Positions 3,640-33,005 of a DNA stretch of 64,000 nt are shown in pieces. This stretch comes from a virus: the IMG/VR virus record IMGVR_UViG_3300020433_000743, positions 1 through 64,000 of that record; one strand, given 5' to 3'. The translations under genes and the position numbers were made by a program. A model generated the notes under the pieces. The model was not told the origin of the DNA. It saw nothing but the letters and a program-made list of their open reading frames with translations, and did no database searches. The first letter of the stretch is position 1. The number at the start of each line of letters is the position of its first letter.

Positions 3640-4382
3640 TACCATTGGAAGTTGTTTAACGATTTATTATCTTTGTGAAGATGCATCATCTTATTAGGGA
3701 AGTTGCAATGTTGTTTGAACATCTCAGGATAAGCATAGTCAGGCATAAGAGTATGTACATCCTTTCTATGAGTAAGGAAGAATTTGTTTAGATAACTCTC
3801 CTCATAATATTGACCTACAGAATCTCTAGGAATATCTTCCTTAGTCCATTGGTCTATCTGACGCATCATATCAAATACATATGGTATCTTACCACCCCAT
3901 AGGCAACCTTGCCAGTACACATTCATATCAATAATATCATCACCAACATATGCGTTTGATCTTTGATTTCTATCATAAGAGCCAGGTGCTTGATGATGAG
4001 GCATCATTCCTAAGTAATGACATGGATGATGAACACCAAAATATTTTTTAGAATCATTGAAGAACTCATCATAATCAATTTTTTCTTGTGTGTATAGATC
4101 AGCATCTACAGATACCAACCAATCATAATCAGAAACTAGTTTTTCAATTTTTAATATCTCTTCAAAAGTTTTATAAAAAGTTTCTGGAAATCCATAGTGT
4201 GGTATCTCCATCAATGTAATATTATCTGGTGTACCCTCTAGTTCAGCATCAGTAAAAACAAAATACTGCTTCTCCATATCAGGTAGAAAATATTTTTCTA
4301 ACCTTTCATACCATTCAGATAAAAATTCAGCATAGGATTCTGTACCCCAGAATGTAATTGCTACCTTATTAATTTTTTTCAT
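3639..4382 (-). CDS. Glycosyltransferase family 6 (ABO/alpha-Gal type)
   Basis: Retaining GT of the family that includes human ABO transferases. Family features in order: VAITFWG at the start, a VSVDADLYT segment with DAD at residues 93-95 in the DXD position, FGVHHPCHY, the acceptor region VYWQGCLWGG, and YYEESYLNKFFL followed by LMPDYAYPE, matching the ESxLNKyf...LsPEY motif. Vertebrate GT6 enzymes use DXD and Mn2+, while most bacterial members have NXN, so a DXD phage member is notable. Product would be an alpha-1,3-linked Gal or GalNAc. Overlaps its upstream neighbour by 4 bases. Confidence 0.85.
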   Translation of the reverse strand: MKKINKVAITFWGTESYAEFLSEWYERLEKYFLPDMEKQYFVFTDAELEGTPDNITLMEIPHYGFPETFYKTFEEILKIEKLVSDYDWLVSVDADLYTQEKIDYDEFFNDSKKYFGVHHPCHYLGMMPHHQAPGSYDRNQRSNAYVGDDIIDMNVYWQGCLWGGKIPYVFDMMRQIDQWTKEDIPRDSVGQYYEESYLNKFFLTHRKDVHTLMPDYAYPEMFKQHCNFPNKMMHLHKDNKSLNNFQW

Positions 4383-21924: not shown

Positions 21925-22157
21925 CTTGTAACATGATCCTGTACATAACATGGTACACCCGCAGGGTCTAACCATTTGGTGTATTCAAAATCTGCAATAG
22001 CTGTTTTCATTTGCATCCAATTATCACAAAGGTACATGTCTTTGTAACCATTGTGATTATTCCATTTTTGAATACGATAATCTGGATGTCCATTTTCTAG
22101 AAGATCAGGCATCTTTACATACCTGTATGGATCATGTTGATATAAAACTTCAATCAT
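21921..22157 (-). CDS. Small soluble protein at head of glycan operon, unknown
   Basis: 78 residues, aromatic-rich, no domain recognised. The start at 22157 is decided by a strong Shine-Dalgarno (GGAGG, 5 bases before ATG), better than the longer in-frame start. It immediately precedes the sugar genes with an ATGA overlap to the cupin gene. Confidence 0.7.
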
Positions 22158-22158
22158 A

Positions 22159-22554
22159 TTAACCTCCTGCAGCATCACATCCAATCTTACTACCTACAAC
22201 TGCACCTATTGGAATTGCCCACCAACGTCCATCTCCTTTGGACATAGCAGCTCCTGCAGCACCACCTAATAATGCACCTGCAACTTTTCCATCTGTACAA
22301 TCATTCTCATCATACTCAACTACAGACTCTCTTTTAAGAACACGATTAGTTGTATGATCATCAGGACAGGGATATTCAATTAGTTCATTAAAAGTTCTTA
22401 CAAAGCCAGGATCGTCTTTTGTACCTGGTACATACTCTTCTCTATATGTTTCTCTGTAACAAGTTTTGCTAGTTGTTTCCCATCTAATAACATCATCATC
22501 AGCAAGTACTGAAACAGGTGTGAGTGCTATAAGTGATGCAAGTAAAATTTTCAT
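22159..22554 (-). CDS. Secreted glycine-zipper protein
   Basis: 131 residues. Signal peptide MKILLASLIALTPVSVLA with a likely cut after VLA. The C-terminal 35 residues (VAGALLGGAAGAAMS then IPIGAVVGSKIG) form a glycine-zipper hairpin of the kind found in membrane-inserting or outer-membrane lipoproteins. Four Cys in the mature part could form disulphides in the periplasm. Likely an envelope protein acting during infection; function unknown. Confidence 0.75.
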   Translation of the reverse strand: MKILLASLIALTPVSVLADDDVIRWETTSKTCYRETYREEYVPGTKDDPGFVRTFNELIEYPCPDDHTTNRVLKRESVVEYDENDCTDGKVAGALLGGAAGAAMSKGDGRWWAIPIGAVVGSKIGCDAAGG

Positions 22555-22763
22555 AATGTTCCTGTAATGTCTTCTTCAATACAACTTAATACTTCACTAT
22601 AATCAGCATCTGGATCTTCTCCATTAAGTTGTAGTCCTTCACTCTCATAATATCTTCTAATCTTTTTGTAAAGTTTAGGATCTTTTACATCCAGATAGAT
22701 TTCTTTATTCACAGCAGCACGTAGTGTCTCTATGTTTTTCTTAAATTTTGAGTTGAGAGTCAT
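22551..22763 (-). CDS. Small soluble protein, unknown
   Basis: 70 residues, charged, largely helical in appearance, acidic C-terminus. Follows directly after the promoter at 22788-22816 (start of RNA about 18 bases before ATG), and overlaps the secreted glycine-zipper gene by 4 bases. No recognised domain. Confidence 0.7.
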   Translation of the reverse strand: MTLNSKFKKNIETLRAAVNKEIYLDVKDPKLYKKIRRYYESEGLQLNGEDPDADYSEVLSCIEEDITGTL

Positions 22764-22787
22764 TGCTCTATAACGGTTTACCCTTCT

Positions 22788-22816
22788 ATTATAATGGATA
22801 AATGTTATCTAGTCAA
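22788..22816 (-). promoter_or_regulatory. Host-type promoter TTGACT-17-TATAAT
   Basis: -35 TTGACT at 22811-22816, 17-base spacer, perfect -10 TATAAT at 22788-22793. It lies in the 57-base gap upstream of the 70-residue gene and is the best candidate for driving the 20-kb glycan operon as an early transcript. Confidence 0.75.
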
Positions 22817-22820
22817 GCAA

Positions 22821-23018
22821 TTAGTCTATTCCGTATGGTGTTAAATCGTATTCTATTTTAGATAAACCCTCTTCTTCCTTTGTATTAGGTTGACCTATCT
22901 TTTCTAGGATATCAGCAGGTATTTTTTTCTTTGTAATGTCGTAGGGTATGGGTGCGTTATTTACACATACCCTTACACATTCCCATTCTTCTTCAGTAAG
23001 AGAATAATTATTCGTCAT
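22821..23018 (-). CDS. Small acidic protein, unknown
   Basis: 65 residues, begins MTNNYSLTEEEWECVRVCVNN, acidic, two Cys close together (C14, C18). Overlaps the upstream membrane gene by 11 bases. No family recognised. Confidence 0.65.
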   Translation of the reverse strand: MTNNYSLTEEEWECVRVCVNNAPIPYDITKKKIPADILEKIGQPNTKEEEGLSKIEYDLTPYGID

Positions 23019-23310
23019 GGTTGTGTCTTAATTTATCCCAATCACCACCTTCATGGCCATGAGCAATACCTAACTCATGCATTCTAGCATGGTCTTTGAT
23101 AGGATCTTTAAGATCTTTACCACCTTTACCAAAAGTAGTATATAAACCATATCCTATGAGTGCTAGTACACATACTCCTATGAATACTAGAAAGGCAGCA
23201 CCTCCTTGTAGATGGCCTATTGGAATAATATATGCTTTACATGTTTGTGGATCAAACTTTTGCCAAGTACCAGGCAAAGTATAAACAGGTGGACAAGAGA
23301 GAAAAAACAT
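23008..23310 (-). CDS. Single-span membrane protein, unknown
   Basis: 100 residues with a short N-terminal stretch, one strong membrane helix at about 37-58 (FLVFIGVCVLALIGYGLYTTF) and a His-rich charged C-terminus (HARMHELGIAHGHEGG). The His residues might bind metal. Upstream neighbour is 4 bases away. Unknown function. Confidence 0.7.
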   Translation of the reverse strand: MFFLSCPPVYTLPGTWQKFDPQTCKAYIIPIGHLQGGAAFLVFIGVCVLALIGYGLYTTFGKGGKDLKDPIKDHARMHELGIAHGHEGGDWDKLRHNHDE

Positions 23311-23313
23311 AAG

Positions 23314-23709
23314 TTACCTTCTATTAATTATTATATCCCCATCATCATCGTCATCTTCTTCATCTTCATTCAATTCTTCAATCCTATCTTGTAAGGATTT
23401 ATGTAAAGGATCTCCTAGATTATGAAGTTCTGGCGAATCTAATTTGAATCTACTGCGATCAATTTGATCTGGTTCATCGAATCTTACTACTAATAACTCA
23501 TCACCGTTTTGGACATCTTCCATTTCGGGATGAGGTTTTTTAGTAACAGTCATCTTATCTATACTAAACGATCCTAAAGGAAATTGTGTTTTAGGTAATG
23601 GTTTCGTAACATCTGCGTATGCACTCCAACCACCAACCATTAATCTTATTGCGTATGCTAATAAGATAAACCAACATATTGCAAAAACAATTTCAGTTAC
23701 CGCGTTCAT
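23314..23709 (-). CDS. Membrane-anchored acidic protein, unknown
   Basis: 131 residues: N-terminal membrane helix at about 5-25, then a polar domain ending in a very acidic tail (ELNEDEEDDDDDGDIII). Start overlaps the stop of the 51-residue gene upstream (TAATG). Likely cytoplasmic tail; function unknown. Confidence 0.7.
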   Translation of the reverse strand: MNAVTEIVFAICWFILLAYAIRLMVGGWSAYADVTKPLPKTQFPLGSFSIDKMTVTKKPHPEMEDVQNGDELLVVRFDEPDQIDRSRFKLDSPELHNLGDPLHKSLQDRIEELNEDEEDDDDDGDIIINRR

Positions 23710-23864
23710 TAGATACCAGTTTCATCATCAACCAAAACTTTATGAGCCGTACCCATACCATCATATTTATCCGAGTCGTAGTAACCTCCTTTAGTTCCAA
23801 AAAACAATGTTAGTCCTACAAAAGGAACACAAGTAACTAACAATACAATAGCTAATTGATCCAT
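23709..23864 (-). CDS. 51-residue membrane protein, unknown
   Basis: N-terminal membrane helix (AIVLLVTCVPFVGLTLFFG) followed by the polar motif GGYYDSDKYDGMGTAH. TAATG overlaps at both ends strongly support translation. The shape, one helix and a short conserved tail, resembles small subunits of membrane complexes. Confidence 0.7.
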   Translation of the reverse strand: MDQLAIVLLVTCVPFVGLTLFFGTKGGYYDSDKYDGMGTAHKVLVDDETGI

Positions 23865-24241
23865 TATCGGTTGAATAGTCTTTGTATTGGTACTTGCTTT
23901 AATTTATCAATCACATCTACTTCTACTCTATCAACAATCTTATCAAGGACATCTATATCAATCTGCATAAAAGGTGGGATAATACCAAGTAGACGAAGTA
24001 AACCATCTACAAACAATGCAAGAGCAGTGAATCCAAGAATCATAGAGATAACCGTTGCGTCTCTATTATGCTTACGCATTGACTCTTCATCAATTCTTCT
24101 CGCTTCAGCAACTGCTACGTTAACTGCATACTCAATCATTCTATCTACTTCTTCTTTGGTATATGCTACTTTACGAATTCTCTCTTCCGACATTTTTGCT
24201 CCTACGTCTGTAAGGGGGAACTCTTTTATTAATTCTACCAA
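23864..24241 (-). CDS. Membrane protein with C-terminal helical domain, unknown
   Basis: 125 residues: charged helical N-terminus (about 20-60), a membrane helix at about 66-90 (VISMILGFTALALFVDGLLRLLGI), and a C-terminal segment with DxxVDRVEVDVIDKLK. First gene after the promoter at 24267-24295. Function unknown. Confidence 0.7.
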   Translation of the reverse strand: MVELIKEFPLTDVGAKMSEERIRKVAYTKEEVDRMIEYAVNVAVAEARRIDEESMRKHNRDATVISMILGFTALALFVDGLLRLLGIIPPFMQIDIDVLDKIVDRVEVDVIDKLKQVPIQRLFNR

Positions 24242-24266
24242 GACTGTCCTCCGTCTATTTGATTAT

Positions 24267-24295
24267 AGTATAACACCCACTTATAGGTTAGTCAA
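24267..24295 (-). promoter_or_regulatory. Host-type promoter TTGACT-17-TATACT
   Basis: -35 TTGACT at 24290-24295, 17-base spacer, -10 TATACT at 24267-24272, followed by the membrane-protein gene starting at 24241. Same -35 as several other promoters in this window. Confidence 0.65.
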
Positions 24296-24311
24296 TATAA
24301 ATTATATATTG

Positions 24312-24464
24312 TTAAGTAATTTCATGCAAGTGTGTTGATGGTCTTTTGCCCATCTTCACACTTCTATCTTGTTCCATCTGATACATTTTCTGCATCATGT
24401 CTTGTTTCTTTTCGATTGCGTCTATCTTTTTTTGAACTTCATTGAGTTCTTTCTTGATATCCAT
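24312..24464 (-). CDS. 50-residue coiled-coil protein, unknown
   Basis: Begins MDIKKELNEVQKKIDAIEKK and keeps a heptad-like pattern to about residue 35, ending in a basic tail. It fills the otherwise empty 300-base stretch between its neighbours. No strong Shine-Dalgarno, so the call rests on the coherent coiled-coil composition. Confidence 0.5.
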   Translation of the reverse strand: MDIKKELNEVQKKIDAIEKKQDMMQKMYQMEQDRSVKMGKRPSTHLHEIT

Positions 24465-24540
24465 ACGTCGTAAAAATTCTTCCCTTATGACCTCCTCACA
24501 AAGGGTAAATGCGGTGAGTTCTGGTCTAAGTATAAATTAT

Positions 24541-24795
24541 TTAGCGAACTTCGAAGTCTAACCTACGAACTTTACGCTTTCTACGATCCTCTTGCCACTG
24601 CATATCTTGGTCTGTTAAACCTTCTTTAACAGTTTTTTTATGTGAGTTTACAAGAATGATATCATCCATATTAACAGCAGATACATTACTACCTCTAATG
24701 GTCATCATGTTTGGACAACCACAAGAATAAGTTTTTCCACTATTAGCTTCTAACTCTTTACCACACGCACGACACCGTACTTTTAGTTTTTCCAT
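24541..24795 (-). CDS. Zinc-ribbon protein, unknown
   Basis: 84 residues. Two Cys pairs, CRACG at the start and CGC about 18 residues later, form a probable zinc ribbon; the middle NMDDIILVNSHKK and a basic C-terminus (DRRKRKVRRLDFEVR) suggest nucleic-acid contact. ATG overlaps the upstream stop (TGATG). Confidence 0.7.
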   Translation of the reverse strand: MEKLKVRCRACGKELEANSGKTYSCGCPNMMTIRGSNVSAVNMDDIILVNSHKKTVKEGLTDQDMQWQEDRRKRKVRRLDFEVR

Positions 24796-25379
24796 CAACA
24801 GTTTTTGTTAAGATCCTCAGCCATATTTCCACCAATTTCTGCACCTTGATCCATACCTATCATCGTAGCAGCACCTGCAAGTACCCAACCAACAAAAGGA
24901 ATAGAGGAGATACCAGTATTAGCAACAGCAGCACCAACTGAAGCACCGACCACTTTACCTGTTTGTTTTCCTCCACCGATTGCTTCGATGCAAGCTTCGC
25001 TTTTGTTACTGGCGATAGAATCGCCAACACCTCCTTTTACTTGCCACTCTTTTTGTATATGAACATCACCATCCATTGTGTATTCTTCTGTAATTTCTTT
25101 GGTTTCGTTTGCTAATCCTAAGAATCCACCCTTCTCTTTAATAGTAGTGGTTTTAAACATTGTCTTTGGATCATTTCCAACGTAACTCATCTTGTATCCT
25201 TCTTTGTCTGCTGATACAACATAAGATGTGTAAGGGCCTACAGGTGGTTGTATTACAGGTATATCACTTCGTCTTGCTATCATACCTATCATACCAATAT
25301 GAGAAAGACCAAGTAGTCCACCCGCACTGAGAGCGAACCACTTAGTCCAATTTATTTTCTTCTTTTCATCTTGATCCAT
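24795..25379 (-). CDS. Membrane protein with C-terminal glycine zipper
   Basis: 194 residues, start at MDQDEKKKINW (25379). Membrane helix at about 12-33, an exposed beta-rich middle with two Cys, and a Gly/Ala-rich hydrophobic hairpin near 135-180 (GKVVGASVGAAVANTG, WVLAGAATMIGMDQGAEIGG). Resembles in plan the secreted protein at 22159. Envelope location is likely; role unknown. Confidence 0.7.
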   Translation of the reverse strand: MDQDEKKKINWTKWFALSAGGLLGLSHIGMIGMIARRSDIPVIQPPVGPYTSYVVSADKEGYKMSYVGNDPKTMFKTTTIKEKGGFLGLANETKEITEEYTMDGDVHIQKEWQVKGGVGDSIASNKSEACIEAIGGGKQTGKVVGASVGAAVANTGISSIPFVGWVLAGAATMIGMDQGAEIGGNMAEDLNKNC

Positions 25380-25419
25380 AATATTAGCAATTACTAACGT
25401 ATATATACTACCAATAATT

Positions 25420-25491
25420 TTACCAATCTGGATAGAGATAATTGGCAAGAAGTATAATTAAAACAAATAATATAAAGTAAACTACTATCAC
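25420..25491 (-). CDS. Possible 23-residue membrane peptide (GTG start)
   Basis: A fully hydrophobic frame starting at a GTG that overlaps the stop of the upstream gene (GTGA). Ends NYLYPDW. Only the overlap and the hydrophobic pattern support it, so it may be chance in AT-rich DNA. Confidence 0.3.
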   Translation of the reverse strand: MIVVYFILFVLIILLANYLYPDW

Positions 25492-25673
25492 CAATCATCC
25501 TCCGCGTTCAAGGACTCTTGATATTCCATATTTTGTTTGCAATGTGCGTGAACATCAATCTCCATATTATAGTGAGCATGAGTATGAACTACCTGTATGA
25601 GGATGAGAGAACCCACCAATATACTATTGCACACTGTTAGTGGGTGAGTGATTGCATTAATTATTTTTTTCAT
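25488..25673 (-). CDS. Small membrane protein with His/Cys tail, unknown
   Basis: 61 residues: membrane helix near 10-28 (VCNSILVGSLILIQVV) then HTHAHYNMEIDVHAHC, a His-rich stretch that could bind a metal. ATG at 25673 overlaps the speD stop (ATGA), so it is co-translated with speD. Confidence 0.65.
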   Translation of the reverse strand: MKKIINAITHPLTVCNSILVGSLILIQVVHTHAHYNMEIDVHAHCKQNMEYQESLNAEDDW

Positions 25674-26011
25674 ATCCAAAGAGATCTATCGCATGCCCAT
25701 CTCTTAACCTCACAAGAATGAAAACGATCCTGCATGTATTGTATCACTGCTTTGTAATTTGTTTTTGGATTGCATGAGAATAGATCACATCTAACAATGT
25801 CTTCCTCTGGCCATGTGTGTATGCTTATATGACTCTCTGCAAGTAATGCATAACCAGTCACACCATGTGGTTCAAACTTATGAGTATCAACCTTTAGCAC
25901 TTCTAACTTACCGATCTTTGCTGCTTCTATTAAGGTTTCTTTTACATACTCTTCATCATCTAATGGTGGAGTCATTAGACATTGTTTTAAATCAAATAAT
26001 ACGTGTTTCAT
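25670..26011 (-). CDS. speD: S-adenosylmethionine decarboxylase
   Basis: 113 residues, the short bacterial proenzyme type. Self-cleaves between E59 and S60 in LAESHISIHTWPE to form the pyruvoyl group. Makes decarboxylated SAM for spermidine synthesis; common in cyanophages. Transcription could start at a TATAAT at 26018-26023 with a weak -35 (TTGCAG), overlapping the terminator of the upstream gene. Confidence 0.95.
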   Translation of the reverse strand: MKHVLFDLKQCLMTPPLDDEEYVKETLIEAAKIGKLEVLKVDTHKFEPHGVTGYALLAESHISIHTWPEEDIVRCDLFSCNPKTNYKAVIQYMQDRFHSCEVKRWACDRSLWI

Positions 26012-26026
26012 ATGAATATTATAGCA

Positions 26027-26057
26027 GAAAAAAAAGACCCCTGCAATGCAGAGGTCT
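26027..26057 (-). terminator. Rho-independent terminator
   Basis: Stem AGACC..CTGCA paired with TGCAG..GGTCT (26035-26057) followed on the minus strand by eight T. It ends transcription of the beta-barrel gene 23 bases after its stop. Confidence 0.9.
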
Positions 26058-26079
26058 CGATTGTTAAGGTATATAGACC

Positions 26080-26439
26080 TTAGAATGTGAATCTAACACC
26101 TGCTTTAGCAGAGAAGTCAATATCATCACTAGAGTTTGTTACACCATATAGTTCACCGTAGAACTTATCGTATGTTGCACCAACGTATCCAGCTAACTCA
26201 ACGTCACCGAATTCGTCAGATGATTCTGTATGAGTAACTGTAGGGCCACCAGAAACGTACCAACCGATTCCACCAGGTGTTGTTCCTTCATAACCAACTT
26301 GTGCTTCAAGAGCACCAGATGTGTATGTTCCATCAGGATATGAACCGTTTGCTTCTAAATTCACATATGGGCCAGCAAAAGCAGCACCAGAGGCTAGAAG
26401 AGGAGCAGCAGCAAGAGCTGCGATTGAAGTTTTAAACAT
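26080..26439 (-). CDS. Small exported beta-barrel-like protein
   Basis: 119 residues. Signal peptide MFKTSIAALAAAPLLASGAAFA, cut before GPYVNLEA. The mature 97 residues alternate polar and hydrophobic residues in several strands (YVNLEANGSY, GYVGATYDKFYGELYGV) and end in GVRFTF, the C-terminal Phe typical of outer-membrane proteins. Probably inserted in the host outer membrane. It has its own unit: two promoters (26558-26565 and 26601-26629), a leader of over 100 bases and a terminator. Superinfection exclusion or permeability change are possible roles. Confidence 0.75.
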   Translation of the reverse strand: MFKTSIAALAAAPLLASGAAFAGPYVNLEANGSYPDGTYTSGALEAQVGYEGTTPGGIGWYVSGGPTVTHTESSDEFGDVELAGYVGATYDKFYGELYGVTNSSDDIDFSAKAGVRFTF

Positions 26440-26557
26440 TTGTAATTTTTAGTGTCTCGCAAGAAAAAATCCTGCGGATGTTAGATTCCCCGACATGGGA
26501 TTCTTTTTATACATCTACGCAGGGTTACGATCTTTCGAGTCCTTCGTTATGTAAAGT

Positions 26558-26565
26558 TATTTATA
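26558..26565 (-). promoter_or_regulatory. T4-type late promoter TATAAATA
   Basis: Exact TATAAATA on the minus strand, 119 bases before the beta-barrel start codon and downstream of the host-type promoter of the same gene. Confidence 0.6.
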
Positions 26566-26600
26566 CAACTGTCACACTAGTAGTGTGCCAGTTCGTGAGT

Positions 26601-26629
26601 ACTATAACACATTTAACCTTGTTAGTCAA
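26601..26629 (-). promoter_or_regulatory. Host-type promoter TTGACT-17-TATAGT
   Basis: -35 TTGACT at 26624-26629 (inside the last codons of talC), 17-base spacer, -10 TATAGT at 26601-26606. Drives the beta-barrel gene with a leader of about 150 bases that contains the 15-base dyad CACACTAGTAGTGTG. Confidence 0.7.
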
Positions 26630-27272
26630 GGCCCTCTTGAACCTTTTTCCAATCTTTATCAAACTGTGCTAGTCCTGCATCAGTAAGAACATGTTTGTAC
26701 ATTTTATGGAATACACCTGTTGGTAATGTACATACATTAGCACCATATTCAAATGCTCTACCTACATCTCTTACATTACGAATTGATGCTGCAAGTATCT
26801 CAGTATGTATATTTTGTGTGCAGTATATATTAGCAATATCTTTAATAAGGCATAGACCACCAAATGAGTTATCATCAACTCTTCCTACAAATGGTGATAC
26901 ATATTTTGCACCTGCTTTTGCTGCAAGTATGGCTTGTGCAGGTGAGAATATAAGAGTAACATTAACCTGTATAACAGGTGCTAATTGTTTACAAACCCAT
27001 AAACCTTCTGGTGTACATGGTACTTTAATAGTAGCATTTCTACCAAACTTTTGATAAAGTCTTTTTCCTTCAGCAAGCATTATTTCATCATCACCTACGA
27101 CTTCCATACTTATATCAGGAATACCATAGTCTATTAACTCTTTATATACTTCTTCTGGATCTCTACCACTCTTCATTATCAGAGAAGGATTAGTAGTGAC
27201 TCCATCAATTAAGCCAGTATCATAACCATCTTTAATTTCTTGAGTGTTTGCTGTATCTAAAAAGATTTTCAT
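26622..27272 (-). CDS. talC: Transaldolase (TalC/FSA type)
   Basis: 216 residues. MKIFLDTANTQEI start, TTNPSLI, Schiff-base K83 in ATIKVPCT and VNVTLIFSPAQA are the short transaldolase signature. In cyanophages it pushes the pentose phosphate pathway toward NADPH and ribose for DNA synthesis. Start at 27272 matches the family; a longer frame adds 11 residues. The upstream 235 bases hold a structured RNA rather than a gene. A short stem CCTTG/CAAGG spans its stop. Confidence 0.94.
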   Translation of the reverse strand: MKIFLDTANTQEIKDGYDTGLIDGVTTNPSLIMKSGRDPEEVYKELIDYGIPDISMEVVGDDEIMLAEGKRLYQKFGRNATIKVPCTPEGLWVCKQLAPVIQVNVTLIFSPAQAILAAKAGAKYVSPFVGRVDDNSFGGLCLIKDIANIYCTQNIHTEILAASIRNVRDVGRAFEYGANVCTLPTGVFHKMYKHVLTDAGLAQFDKDWKKVQEGLD

Positions 27273-27319
27273 TGTATTAGGTGTGTCGTATATTGTTACC
27301 GTCATTATATATTTTGTAG

Positions 27320-27510
27320 AAAAAAGAGGGAGGTCGGATTCCTGTATACCGACAAATAACGGGCATTACTACAGAAGTAAAATACGTTATTGCCTGAGAC
27401 CCGACTGGTAGGTCGGTTCTGACTCGCATCAGCAGCACCACCTGTGTCTCATCACCTTAACTAGCGGTTGCCAGTAAGTTTATTCAGTCACTCCCAACGT
27501 TGCGTCCAAC
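27320..27510 (-). ncRNA. Structured non-coding RNA or long talC leader
   Basis: A 190-base unit without ORF, from the promoter at 27517-27544 to a GTCGG/CCGAC hairpin and six T (27320-27353). Helices seen on the minus strand, 5' to 3': GTTG/CAAC (27499-27510), ACTGGC/GCTAGT with one G-U (27460-27475), TGAGAC/GTCTCA (27395-27451) enclosing CCGAC/GTCGG (27401-27416), AATAACG/CGTTATT (27355-27391) enclosing TTACT/AGTAA, then the last hairpin. Either an independent small RNA or a cis-regulatory leader of talC if the last hairpin is weak. I do not recognise a known family. Confidence 0.7.
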
Positions 27511-27516
27511 AAATGT

Positions 27517-27544
27517 ATTATAACACATGTAATTAATTCGTCAA
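27517..27544 (-). promoter_or_regulatory. Host-type promoter TTGACG-16-TATAAT
   Basis: -35 TTGACG at 27539-27544 overlapping the stop of the upstream gene, 16-base spacer, perfect -10 at 27517-27522. RNA would start near 27510, at the base of the first hairpin of the ncRNA. Confidence 0.75.
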
Positions 27545-27771
27545 GAGCCTTTTGATTTTGATTTTGGTTTTGCTGTTGGTTCTGGTGTTACCACTGGTGT
27601 TTGTTCTTGAAGTGTTACACCTATCTGTTGTAGATATTCTATTGCACCTAATGCTCTAAGTAATAAATCTTTCTTTGCTTGTGCTTGTGCATTCAAATTA
27701 TTAATCTCAACTTTAATCTCTTCCGCTTGTTTTAATAATTCTCTAAGATGGTTTTGCTGTTCTGTCATCAT
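27541..27771 (-). CDS. Coiled-coil protein with Pro/Lys/Ser tail, unknown
   Basis: 76 residues: residues 3-50 form a heptad-like helix (LRELLKQAEEIKVEINNLNAQAQ), followed by VTPEPTAKPKSKSKGS. Two start ATG codons lie in tandem. The promoter at 27793-27820 is upstream. It is the last minus-strand gene before the plus-strand cassette. Function unknown. Confidence 0.7.
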   Translation of the reverse strand: MMTEQQNHLRELLKQAEEIKVEINNLNAQAQAKKDLLLRALGAIEYLQQIGVTLQEQTPVVTPEPTAKPKSKSKGS

Positions 27772-27792
27772 TATGATACATTAATGTTTTTC

Positions 27793-27820
27793 ATTATATC
27801 ATATATATGGGGCTTTTCAA
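27793..27820 (-). promoter_or_regulatory. Host-type promoter TTGAAA-16-TATAAT
   Basis: -35 TTGAAA at 27815-27820, 16-base spacer, -10 TATAAT at 27793-27798, 22 bases before the start of the coiled-coil gene. It lies in the divergent region shared with the plus-strand cassette. Confidence 0.6.
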
Positions 27821-27872
27821 CTCTAGGTATTTTATCGCTAAATAAAGCCGACAAACTATCTTTACCAACAGC

Positions 27873-28442
27873 ATGAAGAAAGTTCTATCACTAATTGGAA
27901 TGGTATTGATGACGGGTGCGGTAGTAGCACCAGCAGCCAAGGCTGATATTATACATACGATCTCTGCTTCAACTCAACTTCGTGTTGATGCAGCTGCAAC
28001 AGATGCAACAAGAATTGGATCCTCATATACTGTACAAGGTACAAATATTACCGCAGGTACAATGGGTGGTCTTTCTGCACAAACTGGTACAGCAGCAGCA
28101 GGACATACTGATGGTGTCTATACAGTTACAACAGCAGGTGATGCATTCAGCTTAAGTGAGTCATTCACAGCTGGCGATGCAGTAAATACTATCGGTTCTG
28201 GTGTTGACGTAACTGCACATACATACACTGCTGAAGTAACAGGTGATAATGCTGCTCCTGCGATTAACTCATACGGAACAATTATGGACTTACCTGCATT
28301 TGGTAATACTGTAACAACATCAGGTGGTCACGCTGGAAGTCTAGCTGGTACTATTGCAACAGACGGTGCTATCGGTCTAACAGCAGGTGGTGCTGGAACC
28401 ACAGCCACTGGCCAAGTAGTTACTACATTGACCATAAACTAA
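27873..28442 (+). CDS. Secreted Thr/Gly-rich protein, unknown
   Basis: 189 residues. Signal peptide MKKVLSLIGMVLMTGAVVAPAAKA, then a low-complexity beta-rich protein full of Thr, Ala and Gly without Cys. Contains SSYTVQGTNI, echoed in the next gene as YQYVITGTNI. First gene of a four-gene plus-strand cassette in an otherwise minus-strand region. Composition suggests an extracellular fibre or adhesin-like protein; no family recognised. Confidence 0.75.
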   Translation: MKKVLSLIGMVLMTGAVVAPAAKADIIHTISASTQLRVDAAATDATRIGSSYTVQGTNITAGTMGGLSAQTGTAAAGHTDGVYTVTTAGDAFSLSESFTAGDAVNTIGSGVDVTAHTYTAEVTGDNAAPAINSYGTIMDLPAFGNTVTTSGGHAGSLAGTIATDGAIGLTAGGAGTTATGQVVTTLTIN

Positions 28443-28450
28443 GATGAGAA

Positions 28451-28894
28451 ATGAAACGGTTATTTGTCCTAACTGCGGTTGCAACTGTCCTTGCGAGTGC
28501 GAGGACTGCGGTTGCTGTGCCCGTAGTGCCTAATTTTACACAGGGCTCGATGCAATCAACGACGGAAACAACGTCTACGGTGACCGAGACCATAAATTCG
28601 ATAGACTATAATACAGGCTATCAATATGTGATAACAGGGACAAACATACAGCACGATGGAGATACTCTATCGGCACCTTCCGTAACAAATGGAACTAATA
28701 CTATACAGGGAGTGACTTCAACATGGACTGGAATGGATCTAAACAACAAACCAAACTTTTCAATCGTAAATCCAGCAGGTTCCTTTCAATACAGCGAAAG
28801 TTACATGGGGCCTGGCCTTGCGACGCAAACAATCATCCAGAGAACTACAACAATAGAAAGCGTCACAAGCACACAATCAACATTCAGCCAGTAG
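28451..28894 (+). CDS. Secreted Ser/Thr-rich protein, unknown
   Basis: 147 residues. Signal peptide MKRLFVLTAVATVLASARTAVA, then a repetitive Ser/Thr/Gln-rich chain with YQYVITGTNI, matching the motif of the previous protein, so the two may be distant paralogues. Ends TQSTFSQ. Eight bases separate it from the previous gene. Probably exported and beta-structured. Confidence 0.75.
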   Translation: MKRLFVLTAVATVLASARTAVAVPVVPNFTQGSMQSTTETTSTVTETINSIDYNTGYQYVITGTNIQHDGDTLSAPSVTNGTNTIQGVTSTWTGMDLNNKPNFSIVNPAGSFQYSESYMGPGLATQTIIQRTTTIESVTSTQSTFSQ

Positions 28895-29637
28895 CCAAAA
28901 AACTTGCCCTATTAGTTTTAAGTGCACTTACATGTACCCCTTCCTACGCAACTGATGTGGGAGGGGTTTCTGCTACCGCAAATCCAATAGCAAATTCCTC
29001 TGGCTCGGTTACGAATCAAGCCATACAAGTTTTGCAGGGCCCATACATAACTAATCAATATGGAAATGGTATTGCATGTCAAGGGCCTACCATGAATATC
29101 ACACCATACGTCAACGGAACGGGAAGTTTCAAGAGGCCATTTGAACGATATTATCAAGATCCAGTGTACAACAACGCAGATAATGACGATGACAATATAC
29201 CCGACAATCCTGGCGAGATCCTTTATTATATTCCTACAAGAACTGGACAGACAGAAAATTATAATCTCTCCGTAGGTCTCTCTGCTACATGGTCAAGACC
29301 ATTAGATAAAGAACTACAGAAACAATGTAAAGATGCAGCAGCAGCAAACATTGCATTAATGAATCAGGCAACTGCAAATAAAAGATTAGACTTTGAGATA
29401 GCTCGTTTGAAAAACTGTGGTGAATTAATGAAGGCTGGTATCATGTTCCATCCGAAATCACCTTATGCATCTGTATGTGCTGATGTAGTATTAGTAAATC
29501 CACCAGGTGTTGTAGCACCACATCAACATGATATTCCACCAGTTGATTATAAAGTTGAACTTGAAGAACCAAAAGAAGTATCATATGGTGATGCATCTGT
29601 ATTAAACCCAATGAGCATTGGTAACACACCAGAATGA
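28876..29637 (+). CDS. Secreted protein with apparent ATC/ATT start, unknown
   Basis: About 253 residues. A clear signal peptide (VAKKLALLVLSALTCTPSYA) begins about 4 codons after an in-frame ATC (28876) or 2 after ATT (28882), with no ATG, GTG or TTG nearer than 28723, deep inside the previous gene. Either a rare start codon is used, helped by coupling to the previous stop at 28894, or translation starts far upstream. The mature part has six Cys, an acidic loop DNDDDNIPDNPGE and a Pro-rich C-terminus. Exported, unknown role. Confidence 0.65.
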   Translation: MNIQPVAKKLALLVLSALTCTPSYATDVGGVSATANPIANSSGSVTNQAIQVLQGPYITNQYGNGIACQGPTMNITPYVNGTGSFKRPFERYYQDPVYNNADNDDDNIPDNPGEILYYIPTRTGQTENYNLSVGLSATWSRPLDKELQKQCKDAAAANIALMNQATANKRLDFEIARLKNCGELMKAGIMFHPKSPYASVCADVVLVNPPGVVAPHQHDIPPVDYKVELEEPKEVSYGDASVLNPMSIGNTPE

Positions 29638-30389
29638 CTATACCATATATTAAAGTAGAAGATCCTAGAATATTCACTCATCCAATTTCGAATATTGGAA
29701 TCTATCGTTTACCGCAATTAAACTTATGGAATATACATCCTCCAATAACAGTTAAACTTGGTTTCCCTATTGTAGAATTACCAGGTTGTGTAGAGTTTCA
29801 TCCTGATGATCAAAACAAAGTAACTAAATTACCTTTTGATAAGAACCTTGTAAATGATGATCCTAAAGGTGCACAAACAGCCTGTCCTAATGGTCAATAT
29901 CCAACGTATAATGCAATTAATTATGAACCAGAACAAAGACTACCTACATTAATTACTGAGGTACCACCAGTAGCTCCACCACCTCCACCAGAAGTACCAG
30001 ATACAGGAGATGTAGTTCCTCCATTAAAATGCCCTGGCCCAGGCCAACTAAGAGTTGGTGATACTACTCAGTCTGGTGATGAGAAAGTAATTGGTCATGA
30101 ACTAAGTCCAGATGGTAAAACCTGTGTAACATTGTATGAGCCAACGTCTCAACTAGAGAAGTATCTTCCATCATTAAATCAAGCATCAAGTGTTACGGTA
30201 CTAGCAATCGCAGCTACAGCAGGTGCAGCAGCAACTCCATTGCTTATAAGAATTATAAAACCTGCAATCAAAAAATTATGGACAACTATACAAAAGAAAT
30301 TAGGTAAAAAAGTAAGAAGACCTTCTCTCTCAGAAAGACGGACAAATAAGTACCGTGAGAAAAAAGGCCTTCCACCACTTAAAATTTAG
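29634..30389 (+). CDS. Proline-rich protein with C-terminal membrane helix
   Basis: 251 residues. No signal peptide; four Cys in the N-terminal half, a polyproline hinge near 118 (PPVAPPPPPEVPD), and one membrane helix near 185-207 (VTVLAIAATAGAAATPLLI) followed by a basic cytoplasmic tail. ATG overlaps the previous stop (ATGA). With the three secreted proteins before it, it could be the membrane anchor of an exported assembly. Ends 4 bases into the convergent gene. Confidence 0.7.
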   Translation: MTIPYIKVEDPRIFTHPISNIGIYRLPQLNLWNIHPPITVKLGFPIVELPGCVEFHPDDQNKVTKLPFDKNLVNDDPKGAQTACPNGQYPTYNAINYEPEQRLPTLITEVPPVAPPPPPEVPDTGDVVPPLKCPGPGQLRVGDTTQSGDEKVIGHELSPDGKTCVTLYEPTSQLEKYLPSLNQASSVTVLAIAATAGAAATPLLIRIIKPAIKKLWTTIQKKLGKKVRRPSLSERRTNKYREKKGLPPLKI

Positions 30390-30829
30390 TTATAATCACA
30401 CTCATCAATACTACCCATACAGTCTGCCTCATCAATAATTTCCATACATTCTCCTACCATCTCAAAGTCTGGTAAATACTCACGACACCTATAAAGGTTG
30501 TAAAGACTTCCTGTTCTACGAAAGTACCATCCATGTATAGGTTGGACATAGTTCATACTTATATGATTATAGAAAGGATCCCAAAGTTCCTTTTCAATTA
30601 TATCTTCTGCTATAAAATTTTGATACCGATTATCAAACTCTTCCTGACATTCCTCTCTGGTTCCTAAACCTTTGTCTGCTAAATTTCTACAAGCAATTAA
30701 GGCATCAGCATCATCCAACTTTTTATTCCACCATGCAGAATAATGATCGGTTATACCATTCACTATAAGTAAAGGCATTGCAAAAGTCAATGTGAAATTT
30801 ACATATGCCTTCTTAAGTTTAGCCAGCAT
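30386..30829 (-). CDS. Unrecognised protein with N-terminal hydrophobic segment
   Basis: 147 residues, starts MLAKLKKAYVNFTLTFAMPLLIVNGI (possible membrane anchor), Tyr/Asp-rich, six Cys in total and an acidic C-terminus. Overlaps the nuclease gene upstream by 11 bases. Confidence 0.65.
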   Translation of the reverse strand: MLAKLKKAYVNFTLTFAMPLLIVNGITDHYSAWWNKKLDDADALIACRNLADKGLGTREECQEEFDNRYQNFIAEDIIEKELWDPFYNHISMNYVQPIHGWYFRRTGSLYNLYRCREYLPDFEMVGECMEIIDEADCMGSIDECDYN

Positions 30830-31283
30830 TTAACGTACCAAATGATCTACGAATCTCTCTGAGTTCCTCAAAGTTTTTATTCTTCGTACCACCATCATAT
30901 TCCCAAGCATATCCTTGCTTGATCATTTCCTCATTAAGTGACACATCCCCATCCCCGATATATAACCACCCCAAAAGACGACCATATTTGCCGATGCCAC
31001 CACTAAGTTCAGTCCTAATAGTAAGCTCGTCGTCACCAGTAATGGCTTGACCCAGTTTCTCTTTGAGCCAGTTTGTTGCGTCGATTCCAAGTGCTTTCTC
31101 CTCTAAGTCACGGGTACGTTTCTCAGGAGTATCAATCCCAGCTACGCGAACCCTTTCTTTTTTGTATAGATCAAATCCAAGATCTATTGTAACATCAATT
31201 GTGTCACCGTCAACTACTTTGTTAATCTTCGTTACTCGGAAGTTGTAACAACTCTTCCGACTTGGGGGTATCATTGCTCCCAT
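30819..31283 (-). CDS. Staphylococcal nuclease-like endonuclease
   Basis: 154 residues. VVDGDTIDVTI, RVRVAGIDTPE and GKYGRLLGWLY are the SNase-fold motifs (Asp pair, Arg, Glu, Arg). Ca2+-dependent cleavage of DNA or RNA, possibly host DNA salvage. The ATG at 31283 is preceded by GGAG with 7-base spacing and is preferred over ATG at 31274 and a TTG further out. The N-terminus overlaps the lipoprotein gene by about 60 bases. Confidence 0.85.
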   Translation of the reverse strand: MGAMIPPSRKSCYNFRVTKINKVVDGDTIDVTIDLGFDLYKKERVRVAGIDTPEKRTRDLEEKALGIDATNWLKEKLGQAITGDDELTIRTELSGGIGKYGRLLGWLYIGDGDVSLNEEMIKQGYAWEYDGGTKNKNFEELREIRRSFGTLNAG

Positions 31284-31479
31284 TTTCAAACTCCATTAGT
31301 GCATTATTTATCATGGAATCAATATCAAGATTTTTTTCTGTTACTCTATATCCTTCTGCATAATCTATTATCCTGTACAGCAATTCTTCTTCAACTTCTA
31401 AAGCATGTGCAGGAGGATCTGTAATTGGTGCTGTGCAACCAACTAATATTAACGGTAGCAATAAAAATTTAATCATCAT
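31222..31479 (-). CDS. Small lipoprotein, unknown
   Basis: 85 residues (or 84 from the second ATG). MMIKFLLLPLILVGC is a lipoprotein signal with lipobox LVGC, so the mature protein is a lipid-anchored periplasmic helix-rich polypeptide of about 70 residues. Phage lipoproteins often block superinfection or form spanins; here the neighbour is a nuclease and a tiny membrane peptide, which would fit a spanin pair only weakly. Confidence 0.7.
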   Translation of the reverse strand: MMIKFLLLPLILVGCTAPITDPPAHALEVEEELLYRIIDYAEGYRVTEKNLDIDSMINNALMEFENGSNDTPKSEELLQLPSNED

Positions 31480-31564
31480 AAGTTAGTATAGCATAGATTA
31501 CAAAAGAAACTGCAACTAGCAATATAAACACCATAATATTTACACTATGAACTACTGTAACCAC
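31469..31564 (-). CDS. 31-residue membrane peptide (GTG start)
   Basis: Starts at a GTG overlapping the stop of the upstream gene (TAGTG) and is one hydrophobic helix (VFILLVAVSFVIYAILTY). It overlaps the lipoprotein start by 11 bases. The tight coupling on both sides argues for translation. Confidence 0.5.
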   Translation of the reverse strand: MVTVVHSVNIMVFILLVAVSFVIYAILTYDD

Positions 31565-31863
31565 TAATCTCTCTGTCGCCAATCATCACTACGTTCTTGA
31601 TGAAACCAATCTACTATCTCATCTGGTGAACCAAAACCCCTTTTATGATTACTTGAATCGGGGTCTCCTATGTTCAAGTTATTCAGAAAAGAATCGTTCG
31701 GATTTGTTGCTTGTCTTCTTGCTTGTTTTAACATACCTCTTGCACTCGTATTTGCTTTTGATAATTTTTGTGCCCAGATCATATCATCTATACTTACTTC
31801 TGTTCCAGCTGCAATAGATTTGCAGATGCCCTCTAACCGAAGGCGGTATGCGGTTGATAACAT
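31564..31863 (-). CDS. Small soluble protein, unknown
   Basis: 99 residues, begins MLSTAYRLRLEGICKSIAAG, helical N-terminal 60 residues and polar C-terminus. A 19-base palindrome (31866-31884) lies directly before the ATG. No family recognised. Confidence 0.7.
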   Translation of the reverse strand: MLSTAYRLRLEGICKSIAAGTEVSIDDMIWAQKLSKANTSARGMLKQARRQATNPNDSFLNNLNIGDPDSSNHKRGFGSPDEIVDWFHQERSDDWRQRD

Positions 31864-31865
31864 TT

Positions 31866-31884
31866 ATTAATACGTAGTATTAAT
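31866..31884. repeat. Palindrome directly upstream of a start codon
   Basis: ATTAATAC-GTA-GTATTAAT: 8-bp perfect arms with a 3-base centre, ending 2 bases before the ATG at 31863. Would fold over the ribosome-binding region or serve as a protein site. Confidence 0.6.
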
Positions 31885-31928
31885 ATAATTTATACGTTTA
31901 ACAATCTATTCACATTAGTGTGTAAGTA

Positions 31929-32042
31929 CTATAACATTCCGACTAATATTAGTCCAAAAGCAACAAACACCATAACCCCCATAGAGATTACAGTGTTATA
32001 AAACCATCTTGGTATTTTGTCTACTTTGTCGATGTCATCCAA
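31929..32042 (-). CDS. 37-residue membrane protein downstream of ndhI (TTG start)
   Basis: Starts at a TTG inside the end of ndhI, 8 bases after AGAGG, a good Shine-Dalgarno. Acidic-basic N-terminus ([16 protein letters not shown]) and one membrane helix ([15 protein letters not shown]). Small single-helix proteins are normal NDH-1 subunits in cyanobacteria, so it is a candidate NDH-1 or thylakoid subunit; identity not shown. Confidence 0.55.
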
Positions 32043-32602
32043 TCGAGTACCTCTGATGGAAGTTTACCGACTCTAGGGTCAGAGTCCTTGACGTTGTGAG
32101 GATCCATCTCACCCTTGGGTAGATAAGTAAGTTCACGCAATGCTCTAACTGAGGGATCAGTTGTAACATTAGTGGGAAGTCGTCCAAGAGCGACATTATC
32201 ATAGTTAAGTTGATGCCTGTCGTAAACAGATAGTTCATACTCCTCCGTCATTGATAAACAATTCGTTGGACAGTATTCTACACAATTTCCACAGAAAATG
32301 CAAGCACCAAAGTCAATAGAATAATTACGTAACTCTTTTTTCTTTGTCTGTTTATTCATCACCCAGTCAACGACTGGTAGATTTATAGGGCATACTCTTA
32401 CGCATACCTCACAAGCAATACACTTATCAAACTCATAGTGTATGCGTCCTCTATATCTTTCGGAAGGAATTAATTTTTCATAAGGGTATTGGACTGTTAC
32501 TGGCCTTCTCCCCATGTGTGAGAGAGTTACAGAAAATCCATCAAACAAATACTTTGCTGCGTTCTTAATTTCTTTTAGATAATCAAGGACTCCTTTAATC
32601 AT
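32021..32602 (-). CDS. ndhI: NAD(P)H-quinone oxidoreductase subunit I
   Basis: 193 residues, full length for cyanobacterial Ndh[21 protein letters not shown] and two ferredoxin motifs, C61-x2-C64-x2-C67-x3-C71P and C101-x2-C104-x2-C107-x3-C111P, bind two [4Fe-4S] clusters. NdhI takes electrons from ferredoxin in the NDH-1 complex of cyclic electron flow. A phage copy would replace or add a short-lived subunit. Its ATG overlaps the stop of a 30-residue membrane ORF (ATGA) and its end overlaps another one. Confidence 0.96.
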
Positions 32603-32691
32603 ATTACGTATGCGTGATTAATCGAAACTATAAGTGCGATTGCAATAGTTCCAAAAATTATTGTTGCTGATCTGATTGGTAAGTTTTTCAT
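32599..32691 (-). CDS. 30-residue membrane protein upstream of ndhI
   Basis: [14 protein letters not shown] followed by one hydrophobic helix. Its TGA overlaps the ndhI ATG, and its own ATG abuts the upstream stop. Coupling to ndhI and the single-helix form suggest a small subunit of the same complex; the family was not recognised. Confidence 0.55.
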
Positions 32692-32922
32692 TTAACATCC
32701 GAAGGGTATACCACAGGATCTAAGATAAAAGTATTTATCAACCTGTGTTGGAACAAAATTGCAATAATCTATAAAAGAAGGATGTGCCTTTAGATAAGGT
32801 ACATCCTCTTTACTGTGTTCTATTGCTGAGTATGCATCATCTGCGTATTCGCAGATTTCGTGATGGTGTTCTTCTGCGTCGTGGTATCCGACGGTATAGT
32901 GCTTTTGCTGAGTAAAGGGCAT
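32692..32922 (-). CDS. His/Tyr-rich small protein, unknown
   Basis: 76 residues. YHDAEEHHHEICEY in the first half, then a Tyr/Phe-rich C-terminus ending CGIPFGC. Four Cys and a His cluster suggest metal binding. First gene of the ndhI group, after the promoter at 32954-32981. Confidence 0.7.
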   Translation of the reverse strand: MPFTQQKHYTVGYHDAEEHHHEICEYADDAYSAIEHSKEDVPYLKAHPSFIDYCNFVPTQVDKYFYLRSCGIPFGC

Positions 32923-32948
32923 GATCTTTCAATCCTGTACTACGATAT

Positions 32949-32981
32949 TATTTATTATACCATATAAGTATTTTTACGCAA
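32949..32981 (-). promoter_or_regulatory. Promoter of the ndhI group; overlapping -10 and late box
   Basis: -35 TTGCGT at 32976-32981, 16-base spacer, -10 TATAAT at 32954-32959. The -10 runs into AATAAATA (32949-32956), an NATAAATA late box, giving the composite TATAATAAATA. The same composite occurs at 33523 and 33724. Confidence 0.55.
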
Positions 32982-33005
32982 CTGTGTGTGGACTCACGGA
33001 CAGTG

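Follow-up and report, generated by a model that had tools for sequence, protein, structure and literature searches.

Genes and RNA features at the talC locus

The window, the whole stretch of 64,000 nucleotides analysed here, covers positions 1 to 64,000 of the 69,470-base virus record of a marine cyanophage (IMG/VR IMGVR_UViG_3300020433_000743). On its minus strand, a structured RNA is located between a small phage ORF and talC, which encodes a transaldolase. From 5′ to 3′ on that strand, the features are:

27541..27771, minus strand: upstream phage ORF of 76 amino acids (phrog_20934), with its stop codon within the -35 box
27517..27544, minus strand: predicted sigma-70-type promoter, -35 TTGACG at 27544-27539 and -10 TATAAT at 27522-27517 (pattern and conservation)
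27323..27511, minus strand: manA RNA (RF01745), full length (Rfam match and covariation)
27498..27511, minus strand: 5′ hairpin P0 (TGTTG-GACG-CAACG), where transcription is expected to begin
27491..27495, minus strand: 5′ strand of the closing helix P1, GGGAG (Rfam fold, covariation)
27328..27332, minus strand: 3′ strand of P1, CTCCC (Rfam fold, covariation)
27320..27325, minus strand: run of six T 3′ of manA, read from the sequence and not called as a terminator
26622..27305, minus strand: talC, with ATG at 27305 or in-frame ATG at 27272 (ORF; Pfam PF00923, phrog_440)

The structured RNA before talC is manA RNA, a family already catalogued. Positions 27511-27323 matched RF01745 over model positions 1-192, scoring 187.2 bits where the curated cut-off is 55.2, and this was the sole Rfam match up to E = 1 between 27200 and 27700. 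The ORFs overlapping it in the window were mechanical ones of 54-55 amino acids. The original prediction of a structured RNA was thus borne out by the Rfam match and by the covariation described below, and the RNA, which the prediction could not place in a known family, does belong to one.

manA RNA was described in 2010 in T4-like cyanophages, in the accessible part of PMC2864571, where a figure legend puts a question mark beside a tentative pseudoknot. The RNA in the window shares with RF01745 the fold, the T4-like cyanophage origin and a downstream gene of sugar metabolism, matches it over the full length and differs from it in nothing, and the window adds one ordinary member of a known family, on talC. 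New beyond RF01745 are the fixed promoter, the loci with a tRNA gene downstream, and an extra 3′ hairpin in some relatives. Beside talC, also on the minus strand, lie genes for an S-adenosylmethionine decarboxylase (25670-26011) and for a cyanophage outer-membrane-like barrel protein (26080-26439).

Conserved fold

The folding energy of the manA region was -57.3 kcal/mol (z = -1.62), and 14 of 200 shuffled sequences folded equally well. Thermodynamic stability by itself is unremarkable, and the structure is shown by covariation. We aligned 31 manA sequences less than 90% alike and mapped the Rfam structure through the row of the window. Compensatory changes were found in 26 of 48 pairs, while the shuffled mean was 10.9 and none of 500 shuffles reached the observed number; when the partners were slid, 3-7 pairs showed a compensatory change. 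In this alignment 94.7% of the cells were paired according to the Rfam fold. Support was weaker for two of the 11 helices, which lie in gapped or length-variable parts and had 75.0% and 66.1% of their cells paired. Covariation in homologues had been set beforehand as the refuting test of the original prediction, and the fold survived it.

Homologue sample

Through a strict core pattern we obtained at least 120 stretches in IMG/VR and 31 in species genomes, and phage records were added. Searching with nhmmer gave 137 manA hits among the matches listed, 9 incomplete and 128 complete. Four complete hits (L002, L157, L161 and the second copy of L065) had no flank anchor string, and the remaining 124 formed 111 nonredundant clusters among the matches listed, 107 of them with 80 bases upstream. 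Downstream ORFs were assigned by a simple ORF caller instead of a gene finder. The IMG/VR proportions given below refer to a sample of the main type, among the matches listed for the strict core pattern.

By nhmmer, manA was contained in two of the 31 pattern matches in species genomes (L133 and L141), and the other 29 are taken as chance. One single-cell genome titled Prochlorococcus sp. AG-418-C09, out of 200 genomes of its genus, contained manA; because the adjoining gene matches phage family phrog_459, this contig was taken as phage. The 2010 paper states, in its accessible part, two gamma-proteobacterial cases (PMC2864571). These were not recovered among 369 genomes from the class of the Hafnia locus, none of which contained manA in a search that had no positive control.

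Promoter and P0 hairpin

The predicted promoter in the window (TTGACG-16-TATAAT) showed 11 of 12 matches, carries TG ahead of the second hexamer and ends five bases before manA. It was among the three best of 46 sites in the region 22000-33000. Because shuffles of this region yielded 41.8 sites, the match by itself means little, and the promoter gains its weight from conservation in homologues. At least 10 of 12 positions matched in 105 of the 107 homologues among the matches listed, with nearly fixed spacing, compared with about 3.7 of 107 in dinucleotide-preserving shuffles. This conservation supports the near-consensus promoter of the original prediction.

In 81 of 107 loci among the matches listed, P0 begins 4-5 bases past the -10 box, so the transcript should start at the first bases of manA. 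The sequence of P0 varies freely, with 55 distinct stems among the matches listed, and stems of at least eight pairs were found in 43 of these 107 loci versus 3.6 in shuffles. Compensatory changes in P0, whose sequence is free to vary, and in 26 of the 48 pairs mean that selection acts on the fold of the RNA. Judged by its conservation in the homologues, the promoter is part of the manA unit. What is new here is the tight tie between manA and its promoter despite very different downstream genes.

In 41 of 107 loci among the matches listed (0.55 in shuffles), the -35 box lies within a terminator hairpin of the upstream gene, and the T-run of this terminator is the promoter spacer. Such an overlap of the upstream intrinsic terminator with the manA promoter can be seen in L160, L053 and L004; the promoter in the window is not among the 41. 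The combination resembles the PeSL cassettes of T4-type phages, an early promoter plus stem-loop terminator at gene-swap borders (PMC4503421). Unlike in PeSLs, the manA promoter is followed by a structured RNA of about 190 bases, and in the window it has no overlapping terminator. Promoter coupling or terminator overlap for manA was not found in the accessible main text of the literature searched, including PMC2864571, PMC9964418, PMC12197685 and PMC10665884.

Region between manA and talC

The talC start lies 22 or 55 bases beyond P1, depending on the ATG used (27305 or 27272), and comparison with relatives suggests the start at 27272. The terminator of hairpin and T-run in the original prediction was not confirmed: the T-run trails the helix that closes the domain instead of a compact hairpin, and pattern scans called no terminator in the manA-talC interval. 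At least five T in a row within 10 bases after the closing helix were found in only 32 of 111 homologues among the matches listed.

We found no purine-rich ribosome site or Shine-Dalgarno sequence before talC in the window. Among the matches listed, only 20 of 105 downstream ORFs were preceded by a Shine-Dalgarno-like sequence, and a ribosome-site switch is therefore unlikely as a general mechanism. Two further candidates were dropped. Mimicry of the anti-Shine-Dalgarno by the 3′ CCUCCC was rejected because these bases are paired in P1 and talC has no Shine-Dalgarno sequence. A late promoter between manA and the gene was not clearly enriched: among the matches listed, 13 of the 111 loci had WTAAATA no more than 90 bases away, versus 9.3 in shuffles.

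Of the features of a stand-alone RNA gene, the window has the own promoter and has no own terminator or defined 3′ end. The position of manA fits a possible 5′ UTR, with the promoter end just upstream and talC downstream of P1. The original prediction had given a regulatory leader of talC as one of two options, and as a placement this option agrees with the own promoter and with the RNA upstream of talC.

Neighbouring genes and copy number

The downstream ORFs at 106 loci among the matches listed belong to many families: gp32 (22 loci), talC (18), an acidic protein of 52-60 amino acids (10), the phage protein phrog_431 (7), a phosphomannomutase-like protein (6), Hsp20 (3), PurS (3) and many singletons. 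The downstream ORF was on the same strand as manA in 105 of 106 loci and the upstream ORF in 94 of 101 loci among the matches listed (Fisher p 0.03); a strand-switch background of 77/485 includes spurious ORFs, and only the upstream-downstream comparison is relied on. The downstream ORF started at most 60 bases away in 59 of the 106.

A tRNA gene was located directly 3′ of manA in 11 of 111 loci among the matches listed, eight by ARAGORN and three by sequence likeness, one of them also by Rfam; L122 and L018 have the order manA, tRNA, talC. A terminator-like hairpin within 130 bases after manA was found in 20 of 111 loci among the matches listed, versus 9 of 293 random stretches.

Thirteen cyanophage records carried exactly one manA apiece, at different places; the cultured phages with one copy include P-HM1, P-HM2, P-SSM2 and P-SSM4. 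All 40 records matched in a further search had one manA place each, three of them with short partial matches only. In annotated phage regions manA follows gp23, pstS, regA, ferredoxin, ferredoxin oxidoreductase, NAD synthetase or small ORFs. Among the matches listed, manA stands between RegA upstream and any of five different downstream families, and between another upstream family and any of four. Some of the gene swaps in metagenomic contigs may be assembly chimeras; the cultured phages vary as well.

In P-SSM4 (L003, 2744-3753) and P-SSM3 (L165, 2701-3751), about 1 kb of tiny annotated ORFs separates manA from talC, and some of these ORFs may be non-coding. Contig L065 carries two full-length manA copies, at 137-312 and 3657-3833, 3.5 kb apart, in contrast to the one copy of the 13 phage records.

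An additional hairpin 3′ of manA

In 22 of 111 loci among the matches listed, a hairpin (strands CCUAAGAUGCAA and GGGCAGAUGG), which we call hairpin B, was found 10-18 bases past manA. It is about 37 bases long with a conserved internal loop (for example L015:3494-3526). An IMG/VR scan for hairpin B alone gave at least 120 stretches; 96 were newly obtained, of which 94 had manA just upstream and two ended at the contig edge. Among the matches listed, hairpin B thus appears confined to the position just downstream of manA. Rfam gave no hit to it at E values up to 1. Covariation in its stems is modest (4 of 9 pairs, 0-2 in slid controls), and its most conserved parts were preset by the search pattern. 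Hairpin B was present in four of five loci that share the gene order of the window among the matches listed, and it is absent from the window.

Possible role of manA

We consider it probable that manA is a cis-acting 5′ leader of the talC mRNA, carried in a mobile promoter-leader cassette. The family, the fold, the coupling to the promoter and the position before talC are established by the analysis; the cis effect on the talC transcript is our inference. Host sigma-70 RNA polymerase would be recruited by the adjacent early-type promoter and start at P0, the next 185 or so bases would form a compact domain of several helices with P1 as its closing helix, and talC translation would start at one of the two ATG codons past it. 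Promoter and RNA would move as one cassette, which T4-like cyanophages would put before various early or middle genes, and the domain would act in cis on its own transcript. Because the talC locus has no terminator and no Shine-Dalgarno sequence to hide, action at the transcript 5′ end is the most likely, and a classical terminator or ribosome-site switch is less likely at this locus. We might speculate that manA at the 5′ end protects the phage message against decay of the RNase E type in the host, or alternatively that it senses a factor or metabolite altering 5′ protection or polymerase passage. According to a review (PMC10989914), host RNase E rises when a different, T7-like phage, P-SSP7, infects Prochlorococcus MED4.

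Several observations count against the cis leader. Where a tRNA directly follows manA, tRNA processing should separate manA from the mRNA; the terminator-like hairpins after manA point in the same direction; and a single copy at varying places is unusual for a gene-specific switch. The tRNA and terminator loci favour an RNA that works regardless of what lies downstream. It is possible, in our judgement with a chance below even, that Prochlorococcus phages carry a portable module of promoter and RNA, mostly in a single copy, and that manA is the part of it that does the work. Such a module would be active whatever gene follows, either as a freed RNA or by action at the 5′ end or on the polymerase, with hairpin B as an optional add-on, and would not be a gene-specific metabolite switch.

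The proposal of 2010, in which a small molecule that changes in infection would, once bound to the aptamer, switch the gene downstream, we regard as rather unlikely. manA resembles classical metabolite riboswitches as a compact, strongly conserved 5′ leader domain of several helices, it is marked as a riboswitch candidate ("y") in the accessible part of PMC2864571, and several metabolic genes lie downstream (talC, phosphomannomutase-like, PurS). Unlike them, manA is a riboswitch candidate and lacks a uniform expression platform. In the window neither a terminator nor a purine-rich ribosome site precedes talC, although another type of platform is possible, and the downstream gp32, Hsp20 and tRNAs share no obvious metabolite.

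Slightly less likely still is a free trans-acting phage RNA, transcribed from its own promoter and released by a terminator, tRNA processing or cleavage, with talC co-transcribed or reached by read-through. The promoter in 105 of 107 listed loci, the one copy per record at differing places, the tRNA genes and terminator-like hairpins downstream and the highly diverse neighbours would agree with it. On the other side, neither the window nor most relatives have a terminator, talC follows within 22-55 bases, the next ORF is almost always co-directional and in many loci no more than 60 bases away, talC and gp32 are repeatedly the downstream genes, and L065 has two copies.

A recombination border is very improbable: the promoter would be the useful part, the conserved sequence a border for gene swaps as in T4 promoter-terminator cassettes, and the RNA a passenger, as the terminator overlap in 41 of 107 listed loci and the varied families downstream of one upstream gene might suggest, but the compensatory changes and P0 indicate that the fold is selected, and part of the metagenomic swaps could be assembly chimeras.

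manA has been a riboswitch candidate since 2010. If the unit includes the promoter, and with tRNAs and gp32 among its neighbours, screens for ligands from "mannose or fructose metabolism" may be misdirected. The question would then be what such an RNA, placed where early transcripts begin, does during infection of Prochlorococcus.

Other cyanophage RNAs

wcaG RNA (RF01761) is likewise a cis-regulatory candidate of marine cyanophages, and both are given in the accessible part of PMC2864571. It is a separate Rfam family from manA and had no match in the window. A link between the two was dropped, as a search without positive control gave no wcaG match in 15 records, including the 13 phage records with manA. 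Elsewhere in the window, a PhotoRC-II RNA (RF01717) was found at 864-962 on the minus strand with 64.4 bits.
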